Positions 35,398 to 40,521 of a stretch of DNA of 64,000 bases are shown here, one piece after another. The notes under the pieces are model-generated. The model was not told the DNA's origin, did not search any database, and was given only the letters and a program-made list of their open reading frames with translations. A program made the translations under genes and the position numbers. Source of the stretch: Bradyrhizobium sp. CCGB12 (GTDB lineage: Bacteria; Pseudomonadota; Alphaproteobacteria; Rhizobiales; Xanthobacteraceae); the NCBI RefSeq assembly GCF_024199845.1, contig NZ_JANADO010000001.1, positions 4,650,001 through 4,714,000 of the forward strand, given 5' to 3'. Position 1 is the stretch's first letter. Each line of letters starts with the position of its first letter.

Positions 35398-35441
35398 TGA
35401 GGTGAGGCATTTGAGCCTCTGCCTTTGGCGGGAGCATGGAC

Positions 35442-35466
35442 AAACCCGCCGATGGCGGGTTTTTTG
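35442..35466 (+). terminator. Intrinsic terminator of the fluoride riboswitch platform
   Basis: ACCCGCC-GAT-GGCGGGT plus six T form a strong terminator. An upstream GGCGGG (35427-35432) can pair with the same CCCGCC, so it can form an alternative antiterminator hairpin. This is the expected off/on switch for the fluoride riboswitch. Confidence 0.85.
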
Positions 35467-35518
35467 TTGCCTGAAGACTTTGTTGCCTGAAGACGAAGGC
35501 CAAGGAGAACGCGAAGGC

Positions 35519-36727
35519 GTGACCACGACGACACCGAATGCTGCACGAACCACACTGCCCCGGGGAATCTGGGTGCTCGGCTTCGTCTCGATGCTGATGG
35601 ACATCTCCTCGGAGATGATCCATGCGCTGCTGCCGATCTATCTCGTGACCGTGCTCGGCGCCTCCACGCTCACCGTCGGTTTCATCGAGGGCATTGCCGA
35701 GGCGACCGCCTCGATCACGAAGATCTTCTCCGGTGCGCTGTCGGACTGGCTCGGCCGCCGCAAGCTGCTCGCCGCACTCGGCTATGGGCTGGCCGCCCTC
35801 ACCAAACCGCTGTTTCCGCTCGCGCCAAGCGTCGGATGGCTGGTGGCGGCACGCTTCATCGACCGCGTCGGAAAGGGCATTCGCGGCGCGCCGCGCGATG
35901 CGCTGATCGCCGATATCGCCCCGGTCGGCCTGCGCGGCGCGAGTTTCGGGTTGCGGCAATCGCTCGACACCATCGGCGCCTTCGTCGGACCGCTCGTAGC
36001 GATCGCCCTGATGTGGTGGACGGCGGACAACTTCACGATCGTGTTCTGGGTCGCCGTGCTGCCGGCCTTTCTGTCCTTTGCACTGATCGCCTTCGCCGTG
36101 AACGAGCCAGAGCCGGACCCGAGCCGGGAGCCAGCGAAGAATCCGCTCAATCTTGCCGCGATGCGGCAAGTCGGAGCGGTCTACTGGCGCGTCGTCGCGG
36201 TCGGCGTCGTCTTCACGCTGGCGCGCTTCAGCGAGGCCTTCCTGATCCTGCGCGCGCAGAACATCGGGCTCAACATGATGTGGGTGCCGGCGGTGCTGGT
36301 GCTGATGAACGTCGCTTATGCGCTGTCAGCCTATCCGGCCGGCGTGCTGTCGGACCGGATCAACCGCACCGGCCTGCTCGCGCTCGGCCTGGTCTTTCTC
36401 GCCGGCGCCGACCTCGCACTGGCCTTGCTCCCGAGCCTTCCGGGCCTCGCGCTCGGCGTCGTGCTGTGGGGGCTGCATATGGGACTGACGCAAGGCCTTC
36501 TCTCGGCCATGGTCGCCGATGCCGCGCCGCCGAGCCTGCGCGGCACCGCATTCGGCTATTTCAACCTGTTCACGGGGCTTGCCCTGCTGGCCGCGAGCGT
36601 GATCGCCGGTGCGTTGTGGGATGCCTACGGTCCGGCAGGCACGTTCCTGGCGGGGCTCGGCTTTGCGCTGATCTCGCTCATCGGACTACTCGCGGTCGGC
36701 AACGGACTGGCGGCAAGAGATCAATAA
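35519..36727 (+). CDS. MFS transporter in the fluoride operon
   Basis: 402-residue major facilitator. Signature segments include GIWVLGFVSMLMDISSEMIH, then the motif-A region SDWLGRRKLLAALGYGLA, RFIDRVGKGIRGAPRDALIA in the centre, and a duplicated motif A (GVLSDRINRTGLLALG) in the second half. GTG at 35519 is preferred: AAGGAG lies 11 bases upstream, and the longer reading from 35402 would cross the riboswitch terminator. Preceded by the fluoride riboswitch and followed 28 bases later by crcB, so it probably takes part in fluoride resistance or in a fluoride-sensitive transport step. Substrate unknown. Confidence 0.88.
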   Translation: MTTTTPNAARTTLPRGIWVLGFVSMLMDISSEMIHALLPIYLVTVLGASTLTVGFIEGIAEATASITKIFSGALSDWLGRRKLLAALGYGLAALTKPLFPLAPSVGWLVAARFIDRVGKGIRGAPRDALIADIAPVGLRGASFGLRQSLDTIGAFVGPLVAIALMWWTADNFTIVFWVAVLPAFLSFALIAFAVNEPEPDPSREPAKNPLNLAAMRQVGAVYWRVVAVGVVFTLARFSEAFLILRAQNIGLNMMWVPAVLVLMNVAYALSAYPAGVLSDRINRTGLLALGLVFLAGADLALALLPSLPGLALGVVLWGLHMGLTQGLLSAMVADAAPPSLRGTAFGYFNLFTGLALLAASVIAGALWDAYGPAGTFLAGLGFALISLIGLLAVGNGLAARDQ

Positions 36728-37279: not shown

Positions 37280-37585
37280 ATGAACGATACCGTTACCAAA
37301 CCGAAAACCAGGACGAAGACCAAGGTCGAGCGGCCCAAGCTGCACAAGGTCATCCTGATCAACGACGATTACACGCCGCGCGAATTCGTCACCAGGATCC
37401 TCAAGGCCGAATTCCGCATGACGGAGGATCAGGCCTACAAGGTGATGATCACCGCGCACAAACTGGGCGTCTGCGTCGTTGCCGTGTTCACCAAGGACGT
37501 CGCCGAAACTAAGGCGACGCGCGCCACCGACGCCGGCCGCGCCAAGGGCTATCCGCTGCTGTTCACGACGGAGCCGGAGGAATAG
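37280..37585 (+). CDS. clpS: ATP-dependent Clp protease adaptor ClpS
   Basis: 101-residue adaptor: a short basic N-terminal tail (KPKTRTKTKVERPKL), then HKVILINDDYTPREFV, with the acidic pocket that binds N-degron substrates, and AHKLGVCVVAVFTKDVAETK. ClpS delivers substrates with destabilising N-terminal residues to ClpAP. The ATG at 37280 fits with AGGAAACG; an in-frame ATG upstream lies in the crcB-clpS gap. clpA is not adjacent here. Confidence 0.93.
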   Translation: MNDTVTKPKTRTKTKVERPKLHKVILINDDYTPREFVTRILKAEFRMTEDQAYKVMITAHKLGVCVVAVFTKDVAETKATRATDAGRAKGYPLLFTTEPEE

Positions 37586-37666
37586 GCCGCAAGCGTCTCT
37601 CGACTGCCATAGATCATCAGCAAACACCGTAAAACGGATGCGGGCCGGACAACGCAGCAACGTCCA

Positions 37667-38848
37667 CTAGGCGCCTGCCAACGTGTCGCGCAAGTTGACG
37701 CGCACACCGTCCGGCTTGCTGACATAGAGATGGCTCTCCAGTACGGACTGCATGTTCTCAAACATCGAATAGAGATCGTCGCAATAGACTGACGGATTGT
37801 CGTAGCCGTTTCTCTTGGAGAAACGATGCGGAAGATAGCCTCCCCCGCAGGCGTTCATGAACTTGCATTGGCGACACTTCGCACAAAGATTGATTGAGGC
37901 ATCGCGCGCCGCTTTCCAGCGCGGCTCATTCCTGACCTCATCGATCGCGTGATCGAAGATGTTGAACCCGGTGTTGGTGAAGCCGTCGCCTGCGATCCGC
38001 AGCACATCGTGGGCCTCCACGGTGCCGTCGGTCATCACGGTGCAAAGCTCGACAGGCTTGTGGCCCACGCCCTCGGTCGGTGAATTGTTGCCAAGCAGGG
38101 CGGTGATCATGTCCGAGATGATGCGGATGTCGGTCGCCGGCGTCGAGCGATTTGCCTCCAGCCACAGGTCGAACAGCCCCTTGTAGAAAGCGGCAATGGA
38201 TGGCGGACTCTCATCCACCGTCGCATCGGGAATCATAATGTCGTAGTTGGAGATTCCACAGGCGGCGAAAAAATCGGCGTATTGCTGCGGCGCGTAAGCG
38301 GGATTGCAGACGGCCAGGGCAATGACGCCAATGTTGCGCGACACCAGCATGCGAACGGCACGTTCCACGGCAGCATGGGTGCCCGTCCCCTGAAACGTCC
38401 TGCGATGAAGGTCGTGAATATGCTCCGGTCCGTCCACGCTGATCGCAACCGAAATGTTGTGAGCCTCGAAGCAGGCCAGCCATTCATCATCGATCAACAC
38501 ACCATTGGTCGTGACCGCGATCGGTATGCCGCATCCGGTCCGCGATGAAATGGCCTCGCAGGCCTCGGCAAAGCGGTGGAAATTCTCGACGCCCCACAGC
38601 AACGGCTCGCCGCCGTGCAGAATGACGGGAAAATCGGCGAGCGAGAACCTGACGACGTGCTCCTCGATGCGCTGCAGCAGACGATGCTGCACGTCAGGGC
38701 TCATTAGCTTCGGCTTGGTGTAAACGGACGCGTCGCGAAACCAGTAACAATAGGAGCAGTCGATGTTACATCTCGTCGCGACCTTGACCAGCAATTGCGT
38801 GATCGGCTGATCCTGGAAGGCGACACAATCTGGACCGTCAGCCGACAT
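37667..38848 (-). CDS. Radical SAM/SPASM peptide maturase
   Basis: 393 residues. The radical SAM cluster is CNIDCSYC (Cys27, 31, 34) followed by YWF, then LHGGEPLLWG, TTNGVLID and ISVDGPEHIHDLHR. The C-terminal SPASM region has cysteines near 269, 322, 325, 328, 334 and 356, with the block CGGGYLPHR and NPSVYC typical of FxsB-like peptide maturases; at the usual second SPASM position a His (AHDVLR) replaces Cys. It follows a small precursor gene by 32 bases, so the pair is a RiPP system. By family, cyclophane (triceptide) crosslinks on the precursor's aromatic residues are the likely product; this is inferred. Confidence 0.85.
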   Translation of the reverse strand: MSADGPDCVAFQDQPITQLLVKVATRCNIDCSYCYWFRDASVYTKPKLMSPDVQHRLLQRIEEHVVRFSLADFPVILHGGEPLLWGVENFHRFAEACEAISSRTGCGIPIAVTTNGVLIDDEWLACFEAHNISVAISVDGPEHIHDLHRRTFQGTGTHAAVERAVRMLVSRNIGVIALAVCNPAYAPQQYADFFAACGISNYDIMIPDATVDESPPSIAAFYKGLFDLWLEANRSTPATDIRIISDMITALLGNNSPTEGVGHKPVELCTVMTDGTVEAHDVLRIAGDGFTNTGFNIFDHAIDEVRNEPRWKAARDASINLCAKCRQCKFMNACGGGYLPHRFSKRNGYDNPSVYCDDLYSMFENMQSVLESHLYVSKPDGVRVNLRDTLAGA

Positions 38849-38880
38849 GCCGACACCGAGGCGAGCTGGAAAAAGTTTAT

Positions 38881-39159
38881 CTAGTACCCTCGAACGAATC
38901 CGCCTCGGCGGAACGCGCCCACGCCCGGAGCGTATGCCCCCCTGCGGAAGGCACCTGCGTTGGCGCCTTTAGCAAAAGCGGCTCGTCTGAAAGCAGCCTG
39001 GGTCGCCACAGGATCGTCGGAGACGACGCCCTGCCCCGCACCCTGTCCTCGCAGATCGTTCAGCAATGCGTCGATACCCTGATGGTCGCTCTGAATGGTT
39101 GCACCAGGCCCATGCAATTGGATGAGGCTAGCCAAAACCTTTAGCGTCGTAATCGGCAT
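38881..39159 (-). CDS. Putative RiPP precursor with repeated AFRRxx[F/Y] core
   Basis: 92 residues. An N-terminal leader (about 1-50, MPITTLKVLASLIQLHG) is followed by a core with three near-identical heptads: AFRRAAF (56-62), AFRRGAY (70-76) and AFRRGGF (82-88), ending VRGY. GGGGAG lies 8 bases before the ATG at 39159; a longer reading to 39267 is not supported. Directly upstream of the radical SAM maturase in the same orientation. Each aromatic-Arg-Arg unit fits the aromatic-X-X pattern crosslinked in triceptides. There is no signal peptide, and no exporter or peptidase is next to it. Confidence 0.8.
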   Translation of the reverse strand: MPITTLKVLASLIQLHGPGATIQSDHQGIDALLNDLRGQGAGQGVVSDDPVATQAAFRRAAFAKGANAGAFRRGAYAPGVGAFRRGGFVRGY

Positions 39160-39237
39160 GATTATGCTCCCCTTTTTCGCGACGCAATGCAGGGATCGAA
39201 CGAAAGGCCGGACTATCGAGCCGGCTGAGCAATGACG

Positions 39238-39260
39238 AACAATATACCTTTTCCATTGTT
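39238..39260. promoter_or_regulatory. Inverted repeat upstream of the RiPP precursor
   Basis: AACAAT and ATTGTT are perfect 6-bp arms 11 bases apart, about 80 bases before the precursor ATG, overlapping an AT-rich TATATT that could be a -10 box on the minus strand. Possible operator controlling the RiPP pair; regulator unknown. Confidence 0.4.
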
Positions 39261-39287
39261 GCGGCAATGTGTCGGGACCCGGCTGGT

Positions 39288-39308
39288 CTGCTCCACCTCA
39301 TGGAGCAG
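39288..39308. terminator. Stem-loop between the cyclase and RiPP genes
   Basis: CTGCTCCA-CCTCA-TGGAGCAG is a perfect 8-bp stem 22 bases after the cyclase stop (minus strand). No T-run, but it could help end the cyclase transcript and insulate the RiPP unit. Confidence 0.45.
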
Positions 39309-39330
39309 ACATCGCTCCTGGAAAGACGCC

Positions 39331-40521
39331 CTAATCCATCACCACCGGCGTCTCTTCCGCCAGGCCGTACACGCGCTGCGCCTTGGAAAATCCTGCGATC
39401 GGAAATTCGCCGAGCTCGTGCCAATCGTGGCGGCAGACATTGGCGAACCCTTCCGACGCCACGACGGTTCGCCCCAGCCGCCCCGTGATCTTCTCCAGCC
39501 TTGCCGCGAGATTGACGGCGGGGCCGATGCAGGTGAAGTCCAACCGGTTGCCGCCACCGATATTGCCGTAGAGGATGTTGCCGACGTGCAGCGCCACGCC
39601 AAAGCGGAAGCGCTCGATGATGTCGCCTACCGGAAAGGCGAGCGCCTCGACGCTCGCGCGCGATTCACGCGCCGCCTCCAGCACGCGCGTGCAGACATGG
39701 GCGGCATCGCCGACATATTCGTCGATCGGAAATACCGCGAGCAAGCCGTCACCCATGAATTTCAGCACCTCGCCGCCGTGGCCGCGGATCGCGGTGACCT
39801 GGCAGTCGAAATAATGGTTGAGAATTGCGACCACCGTCTCGGCTGGCAGCCGGTCAGACAGCGCGGTGAAGCCGCGCAGATCCGAGAGCCAGATCGCGGC
39901 CTGCATGGTGTCGTTGTGACCGCGGCGGATCTGGCCGCCGAGGATGCGGGCGCCCGCGCGATTGCCGACATAGGTGTCGAGCAGCATCTCGGCCGTGCGG
40001 CGCAGGCTGATGATCTCGCTGACGCGCGCGAGCGGCGCCATGACGGCGCGGATCGCCGCGATGTCGTCGTCGCTGAAGCCGCCGGGCTGCCGTGTCATCC
40101 AGCTCGTCGCGTGGACCGAGCCGTCGAGGAACGGCAGCGGCACCGCGACATAGTCGGTCCCGCCTTCGGCGCGCATGTCGTTGATGATCGGAAACCGCTT
40201 GCTGTCGGGATCATCGACGCGTCCCCTCACCTCGACCCCCTGCTCGAATACGATTCGAAGCGGGCTCTGGGCAAATTCGGGGGTATCCAGGATATCGAAA
40301 TCGACGGTGCCGATCTCGACCTCCCCGCCCTGCCGCCAGATGAAGTTGCGGCCGAAGATCTCGGGGTGGAGTGTGCGGATGAAGATGCCGAACCGCCACA
40401 GCGGCAGGCCGCCTACGACCAGACGTTCGCAGAAATCGGCGACCATCTCGGCCGGCTCTACCGACGACCAGGCGCCGTCGATCAGCCAGTTGGAGACGCG
40501 CTGAAGCTCGGAGCCGTTCAT
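39331..40521 (-). CDS. Class III adenylate/guanylate cyclase
   Basis: 396 residues. The N-terminal half (about 1-200) has no clear catalytic motif and resembles sensory or regulatory regions of such cyclases. The C-terminal catalytic domain has LSDLRGFTALSDRLP (metal Asp), GGEVLKFMGDGLLAVFP (second metal Asp) and IGPAVNLAARLEKITG. These enzymes make cAMP or cGMP. The ATG at 40521 is preferred; a longer reading to 40686 overlaps aroC's 3' end. No obvious operon partner; the regulatory input is unknown. Confidence 0.9.
   Translation of the reverse strand: MNGSELQRVSNWLIDGAWSSVEPAEMVADFCERLVVGGLPLWRFGIFIRTLHPEIFGRNFIWRQGGEVEIGTVDFDILDTPEFAQSPLRIVFEQGVEVRGRVDDPDSKRFPIINDMRAEGGTDYVAVPLPFLDGSVHATSWMTRQPGGFSDDDIAAIRAVMAPLARVSEIISLRRTAEMLLDTYVGNRAGARILGGQIRRGHNDTMQAAIWLSDLRGFTALSDRLPAETVVAILNHYFDCQVTAIRGHGGEVLKFMGDGLLAVFPIDEYVGDAAHVCTRVLEAARESRASVEALAFPVGDIIERFRFGVALHVGNILYGNIGGGNRLDFTCIGPAVNLAARLEKITGRLGRTVVASEGFANVCRHDWHELGEFPIAGFSKAQRVYGLAEETPVVMD

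Follow-up and report, generated by a model that had tools for sequence, protein, structure and literature searches.

Triceptides, that is, peptides that carry three-residue cyclophanes, are made by several described families of radical SAM/SPASM maturases, and the residues that are joined differ from family to family. According to passages on triceptides in PMC11002830, YhhB links the Cβ of Arg to Tyr (at C3) and to His (at C2), while the link made by XncB runs from Trp to Arg or Asn. The partners described there for Phe are Asn or Ser, and those described for Arg are Trp, Tyr or His; Phe-Arg and Phe-Lys links are absent from the triceptide linkages given in those passages. Related enzymes form other bonds, for example the C-N link of dynobactin and the C-O link of darobactin (PMC11002830, in part). 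One further enzyme, ChlB, is called a "multiple cyclophane synthase" in the title of its study, as cited in the reference list of PMC12636437.

The locus discussed here lies in a window of 64,000 nucleotides (the whole stretch of DNA that was analysed) from Bradyrhizobium sp. CCGB12. It consists of two genes separated by 32 nt:

37667..38848, minus strand: radical SAM/SPASM maturase gene, 393 aa, a single domain with no HExxH extension
38881..39159, minus strand: precursor peptide gene, 92 aa (leader approximately residues 1-38, linker 39-54, core 55-92)

A preliminary description of this DNA had taken the pair to be a minimal two-gene radical SAM RiPP system of the triceptide kind, and profiles, a ChlB-like fold and linkage of the two genes in 18 of 18 other neighbourhoods all bear this out. 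Its coordinates, sizes, 32-nt gap and motifs were correct as well, the minus strand being left unstated. Its remark that the motif could be matched to none of the described classes finds no support, as aromatic-x-Arg cross-linking is described for YhhB and XncB (PMC11002830).

We consider it probable that this is a two-gene triceptide cassette in which each F-x-[R/K] site of the precursor is closed as a cyclophane, five of them in the window. One cyclophane is assigned to each site because of the analogy with the aromatic-x-Arg sites of YhhB and YhhA. On this analogy, which supplies the ring chemistry, the cassette would constitute a new triceptide subfamily with Arg/Lys acceptors.

Directly 5' of the precursor ATG stands the purine-rich AAGGGGAG. 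The 92 residues of the precursor include neither Cys nor Trp. Because Cys is absent, thioethers are disfavoured, and the thioether RiPPs (sactipeptides and ranthipeptides) were ruled out. A Pfam match of the precursor to C_LFY_FLO (15.8 of 25 bits) was taken as chance.

The core had been read as three heptads, AFRRAAF, AFRRGAY and AFRRGGF, of a repeat AFRRxx[F/Y]. The heptads are indeed present, and in two of the three the final aromatic doubles as the first residue of the following site. The conserved unit, however, is F-x-[R/K]-[G/A], because R/K at +2 is nearly universal for Phe and +3 is mostly Gly or Ala. The core sites run FRR, FAK, FRR, FRR, FVR. Thus, the window holds five F-x-[R/K] sites rather than the three crosslink sites proposed earlier, when FAK and FVR were missed. 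Their predicted rings, with conservation taken from a 16-row alignment (A2), are:

38983..38991, minus strand: predicted ring 1, F57-R58-R59, by the F-x-[R/K] rule; invariant in A2
38968..38976, minus strand: predicted ring 2, F62-A63-K64, by the F-x-[R/K] rule; F62 invariant in A2
38941..38949, minus strand: predicted ring 3, F71-R72-R73; F71 and R72 invariant in A2, R73 being R or K in relatives
38905..38913, minus strand: predicted ring 4, F83-R84-R85; F83 and R84 invariant in A2, R85 nearly so
38890..38898, minus strand: predicted ring 5, F88-V89-R90, within a C-terminal F-x-R-x-x-COOH; F88 and R90 invariant in A2

The rule was counted over 153 distinct precursors, drawn from 121 proteins (the window precursor together with 120 listed homologues) and from 50 loci, with duplicates removed. 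Counted from the first FRR, 768 of 773 Phe have R/K at +2; four of the five exceptions lie in frameshifted-looking tails (in three database proteins) and one in an over-extended start. Counted from the leader end, F-x-[R/K] accounts for 767 of 776 Phe, against a mean of 135 and a maximum of 160 in 200 composition-preserving shuffles. Five of the nine exceptions on this count proved, when the sequences were read, to be FLS or FQE in the linker. The residue at +1 is Arg in 60%, Val in 17%, Ala in 13% and Ile in 6%, so that the triplets other than FRR include FVR, FAK, FIR, FAR and FVK; the residue at +3 is Gly in 85% and Ala in 12%. A variable residue at +1 together with a fixed R/K at +2 is, of course, what a link from i to i+2 would be expected to leave. 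Among the 145 cores with a regular C-terminus (8 of the 153 were excluded), 133 have five sites and 12 have six. These regular cores also contain 361 Tyr, of which 142 lie too close to the end to have a +2 residue; R/K stands at +2 in only 1 of the other 219, and the rule is therefore specific to Phe. Thus, the precursor next to the maturase does carry conserved aromatic-x-x acceptor sites of the kind that membership among triceptides calls for.

It might be argued that ring closure is confined to the three FRR sites, leaving FAK and FVR linear. FRR or FRK does occur three or more times in 150 of the 153 cores, and FRR keeps its middle Arg where FAK, FVR, FIR and FAR are more variable. This difference counts against a uniform set of rings, since the enzyme might treat two sites with small or hydrophobic middle residues differently. 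Restricting closure to FRR is nevertheless unlikely, for the other two Phe and their +2 R/K are kept with very few exceptions, and a variable middle residue is tolerated in YhhA (YDR, HHR, HNR) and in the repeats of a related precursor, L039 (YTR, YDR, YAR).

The probable closure of all five sites would fall to the maturase, whose motifs CNIDCSYC, CGGGYLPHR and NPSVYC lie in two regions:

38747..38770, minus strand: radical SAM cluster motif CNIDCSYC (C27, C31, C34); CxxxCxxC in 120 of 120 listed homologues
37781..38047, minus strand: SPASM region (C322, C325, C328, C334, C356); CxxCxxCx5CGGG in 117 and NPSVYC in 116 of 120 listed homologues

The maturase passes the Pfam Radical_SAM model (PF04055, 56 bits). 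In the NCBIfam scan, for which the best 25 of 71 models at E ≤ 10 were considered, it scored highest with YhhB (304 bits, cut-off 445), FxsB (283, cut-off 370) and XyeB (182, cut-off 450). All three are cyclophane-forming by name, and the sulfatase maturase model gave 140 bits (cut-off 349). The comparison with radical SAM RiPP families that had been proposed earlier puts cyclophane-forming families at the top of the list, with every score below its cut-off; neither precursor nor maturase reached any curated NCBIfam cut-off.

The fold points the same way. An AF2 model built from 25 sequences (pLDDT 89.7) was compared by Foldseek with the PDB, where the first matches were the ChlB entries 9gmc, with a ChlA mutant, and 9gm3, with a precursor leader region (E 4e-35, TM 0.84-0.85, 33-34% identity). 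Anaerobic sulfatase-maturating enzymes came next. By sequence profile and by modelled fold, then, the maturase belongs with the cyclophane-forming radical SAM/SPASM group. That YhhB, FxsB and XyeB lead the profiles and ChlB leads the folds supports the triceptide reading.

A maturase that falls below every curated cut-off, at 33-35% identity to the annotated YhhB enzymes, could of course be a radical SAM peptide enzyme that forms no C-C cyclophane between i and i+2. It might instead, for example, epimerise a residue, join Phe to Arg by a C-N bond or make a longer link, the bonds of dynobactin and darobactin being a precedent in related enzymes. We regard such a product as quite improbable, as the nearest relatives of assigned chemistry are cyclophane formers by profile, by tree and by fold, and the spacing of R/K is fixed at +2.

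Thus, a triceptide is the preferred reading, and the described systems can be compared with it one at a time. YhhA/YhhB (NF041707) supplies the best maturase profile and, as in the window, has its precursor directly upstream. YhhA has aromatic-x-Arg sites, the two annotated peptides (L181, L182) ending YDRMHHRHNRS. The two annotated YhhB, however, are 711 and 715 aa long, against 393 aa for the window maturase, which lies outside their clade as well as below the YhhB cut-off; and the three sites of YhhA are packed and use Tyr and His, where those of the window precursor are five, Gly-rich and use Phe.

FxsA/FxsB (TIGR04269) supplies the second-best profile, and ChlB is a structural relative. 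The C-terminal F-x-R-x-x-COOH of the window precursor resembles the FxSxx-COOH from which FxsA takes its name. The window maturase nevertheless lies under the FxsB cut-off and lacks an HExxH extension, and no partner gene is common to the neighbourhoods. The i+2 residue is Arg/Lys in the window but Ser for MscB (PMC11002830, in part).

Repeated Gly-rich Phe sites recall GrrA/OscA1 (TIGR04260). The GrrA model matched 5 of 16 precursors weakly (best E 0.0019), and when 8 precursors were rescanned only P0020 matched (18 bits, cut-off 31); the window precursor gave no GrrA match at E ≤ 10. With GrrM/OscB (TIGR04261) the window maturase scores 122 bits against a cut-off of 310, and the acceptors of OscB are Asn/Asp (PMC11002830, in part) where the candidate acceptors here are Arg/Lys. 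XyeA/XyeB (TIGR04496) has a related maturase and, in XncB, the Trp-to-Arg link, but the score lies below the cut-off and the window precursor has no Trp. Assignment to YhhB, FxsB, XyeB or GrrM/GrrA was rejected, as all scores are below cut-off. The literature searched contained no paper on a two-gene F-x-[R/K] system; the motif may stand in tables beyond that search, for example in Sugiyama et al. 2022.

The leader of the precursor is more strongly constrained than its core, and one block within it is strongly conserved:

39052..39108, minus strand: conserved leader block PGATIQSDHQGIDALLNDL, with 10 positions invariant in the 16 rows of A2 (P18, A20, T21, S24, D25, H26, G28, I29, L32, L33)

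The block is probably, judging from its conservation, the recognition element for the maturase, and TIQSDHQGIDALL within the leader is a candidate for an element needed for modification. Against the block VTLKSTNPALDGIV of the sister precursors described below it gives a weak profile match (hhalign probability 34%, E 4e-4). Pooled dN/dS between the window copy and 15 equal-length relatives (three evident duplicates among them, so that not all are independent) was 0.021 in the leader, 0.112 in the core and 0.329 in the linker. Purifying selection acts on both leader and core.

It is highly unlikely that the pair instead encodes an RGG-like nucleic-acid-binding peptide, its repeats selected for binding RNA or DNA and the enzyme acting elsewhere or only tuning it. 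FRRGGF and FVRGY do resemble RGG boxes, and the core is basic (R7 K1, with no acidic residue in 36 residues). In the PDB, the precursor profile matched nothing but the Gly/Arg-rich tails of two 153-residue chains, one deposited as mS86 and the other as an RRM domain-containing protein (E 4.4 and 4.8). These matches, however, are compositional and not significant, and the fixed F-x-[R/K] spacing, a leader conserved above the core and co-occurrence with a maturase are features of a RiPP. The modified product might still bind RNA.

The pair is no chance arrangement. A protein search at E ≤ 0.001 gave 755 homologues for the precursor and 2357 relatives for the maturase (other subfamilies surely among the latter); among the 120 listed of each, every match with a named organism is Bradyrhizobium. 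Among 265 Bradyrhizobium genomes, 44 have the precursor at E ≤ 1e-6 and 45 the maturase at E ≤ 1e-60. One of these 45 (G492) has the sister type, at 43% identity. The precursor genomes and those with the FRR-type maturase are the same 44 (lists compared by eye), and none of the 265 was found with only one of the two genes, which supports the triceptide reading. Conservation of the pair across Bradyrhizobium, suggested in the preliminary description as a check, was thus found: the precursor stands beside the maturase at 51 loci, 50 of them by script, with the precursor of the remaining one (L023) located separately. Some genomes are counted twice among these loci, and L108, whose maturase is cut by a contig end, was dropped. 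At L023 (in G411) the maturase is interrupted by a single in-frame TGA and the adjacent precursor looks intact, possibly decay or a sequencing error. CCGB12 itself has one copy of the cassette; further orphan precursors in its genome were rejected, the best other match having E 0.03.

Of 397 genomes sampled across the order, 10 match the maturase at E ≤ 1e-40: 5 of 15 Bradyrhizobium (CCGB12 included), none of the 4 others from the family, one with the Tat-leader type described below (G065, 42% identity), and four with frames of 717-760 aa that group with annotated YhhB in the tree. The YhhB profile, in a phylum-wide sample, matched 7 of 398 genomes at E ≤ 1e-50, none above its cut-off. Among titled genome contigs (the best 80 of 421 relatives), every locus with a precursor of the genus type is Bradyrhizobium. 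In these samples, then, the cassette is restricted to Bradyrhizobium, a statement confined to them because the contig scan kept the best 80 of 421. A plasmid home was rejected, since the 20 plasmid records that match at E ≤ 1e-30 are all below 60% identity.

A 43-row maturase tree places the Bradyrhizobium enzymes in one clade (support 100/100) on a long stem. The clade falls within a 30-row set (100/97) that also holds the Tat-leader clade, L083/L084 with L086, Blastococcus and two gammaproteobacteria; the two annotated YhhB (on plasmids L181 and L182) lie outside it. The branching order within the set is unsupported. A 42-row tree without the annotated YhhB recovers the same set. For these trees, in which the program warned of long branches that meet, L111, L113, L114, L118 and L119 were left out, as were L123 and L132 from the 43-row tree (long branches).

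The unnamed Tat-leader clade (L007, L039, L074-L081, L107; 11 precursors) holds enzymes among the nearest outside the Bradyrhizobium clade (38-42% identity); those of L082, L084 and L086 are equally near (39-40%). Its precursors have SRRxFLDRLK-like N-termini (SRH in L075), a VTLKSTNPAL-like block, similar if weakly so to the window's leader block, and Y/F-x-R repeats. They are unlike the window precursor in the Tat-like N-terminus, in repeats that are Tyr-rich and packed, and in a gene often found beside them: a carbon-nitrogen hydrolase (nitrilase-type) homologue lies just downstream, by tblastn, in 6 of the 11 loci (L076, L077, L078, L080, L081, L107; PF00795 confirmed in L077, L080 and L107). 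Two of the five loci with no hydrolase match, L075 and L079, end less than approximately 1 kb from the maturase. No such homologue occurs in 18 Bradyrhizobium neighbourhoods. NCBIfam Tat models match the sister precursors weakly, formate_TAT in 9 of 11 and TAT_signal_seq in 2 of 11, with scores under the cut-off in the three for which bits were shown (L007, L039, L077). Tat export of the sister precursors is therefore put forward as a suggestion.

Other relatives vary the theme. L083 (Gemmatimonadetes) and L084 (Filimonas) repeat FDRCFNK in the precursor, and their maturase is followed by a PhyH-type oxygenase; possibly, to judge from these genes, Phe-Asp-Arg rings are formed and later hydroxylated. 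The L086 maturase (Mesorhizobium sp. CA8) is preceded, upstream of 3001, by a peptide that repeats NFANYAM, possibly another type of site. The Y-x-R and Y/F-R-R sites of the sister clade, F-D-R of L083/L084 and the YhhA sites support the triceptide reading.

The surroundings of the cassette are less constant than the cassette. By Pfam, the plus-strand neighbours in the window are an MFS transporter, crcB and clpS; those on the minus strand are chorismate synthase and a guanylate-cyclase-domain gene. Two of these bear on the earlier statement that no transporter or peptidase gene is adjacent:

35402-36727, plus strand: MFS transporter gene, ending 0.9 kb from the cassette
37280-37585, plus strand: clpS, a protease adaptor gene, adjacent and convergent to the cassette

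The statement calls for this qualification in the window, but the MFS gene is absent from 14 and clpS from 13 of 18 other neighbourhoods (4 kb each side). In these, precursor and maturase occur in 18 of 18, clpS, the cyclase and chorismate synthase in 5 each, and crcB and the MFS gene in 4 each. A linked third gene was rejected, since no window neighbour tested exceeds 5 of 18. A separate count over 19 neighbourhoods, omitting ORFs under 90 aa, gave the maturase in 19 and the precursor in 15; some larger recurrent clusters in it are antisense or other-frame ORFs.

The clpS locus was also compared in 18 other Bradyrhizobium genomes, with flanks up to 1.5 kb. In six of them, genomes without the FRR-type cassette, the matches to clpS and the cyclase end 10-78 nt apart (L162, L164, L167, L170, L174, L175; L170 is G492, with a sister-type system elsewhere in its genome). 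In L173 and L176 they end 29-64 nt apart, and both genomes carry the cassette elsewhere. In L166, L171 and L172 clpS and the cyclase are separated by a different gene, and L169 carries the cassette at this locus; in L160, L161, L163, L165, L168 and L177 the cyclase is absent from the stretch examined beside clpS. The interval (37585-39331 in the window) is thus empty, or holds the cassette or other genes, depending on the Bradyrhizobium lineage. Because its contents differ among genomes, it looks like a place where genes are gained and lost. The G+C content of the cassette is 57-60%, that of the flanks mostly 63-67%.

Upstream of the precursor stands a possible promoter or operator, formed of a palindrome-like element and a TATA-like box:

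39241..39269, minus strand: upstream element CATTGCCGCAACAATG, then GAAAAGG and TATATT, approximately 110 nt before the precursor start codon

CATTG-N6-CAATG, with at most 2 mismatches and at -99 to -127, occurs in 24 of 40 distinct upstream regions and is not so placed in the other 16. The 16-mer CATTGCCGCAACAATG is exact in the CCGB12 genome at the cassette only; 4 other places have 1 mismatch.

How might such a cassette work? By homology, the maturase would bind the conserved leader block. Its 5'-deoxyadenosyl radical chemistry would then abstract a hydrogen from Cβ of the i+2 residue (Arg or Lys), and this Cβ, by analogy with YhhB, would be joined to the ring of the Phe at i. Each site would become one strained three-residue cyclophane; with five of them, the peptide would lose approximately 10 Da. 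What results would be rigid, free of acidic residues and approximately 36 residues long, with a charge of +8. As a guess, it would be released by an unlinked housekeeping protease, or act with its leader on. Most likely, again as a guess, it would bind an anionic partner, whether the envelope, nucleic acid or the membrane of a competitor. Export, removal of the leader and self-protection are left unexplained by the triceptide reading, because no other gene is consistently linked.

A broader picture can be offered with slightly more doubt than confidence. Here, the product would be an uncatalogued polycyclophane, so far seen only in Bradyrhizobium, with five or six Phe-(Arg/Lys) rings in a Gly-rich cationic peptide. 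It would belong to a wider unnamed clade of aromatic-x-Arg triceptide systems. In one branch of that clade the precursor would be directed to Tat and a nitrilase-fold enzyme added, so that Tat would export modified repeat peptides.

If the triceptide reading is true, Phe-Arg and Phe-Lys would be added to the linkages described in those passages of PMC11002830. One small enzyme would close five or six rings per chain without linked partners, and the cassette would offer a simple test case for how triceptide enzymes count and order their sites. The sister clade, with its Tat-like leaders, raises the question of whether Tat can carry a RiPP precursor that has been modified. For Bradyrhizobium itself, with both genes in 44 of 265 genomes, no genome found with one alone, and an empty site in several relatives, the function of the peptide is open to test by deletion.
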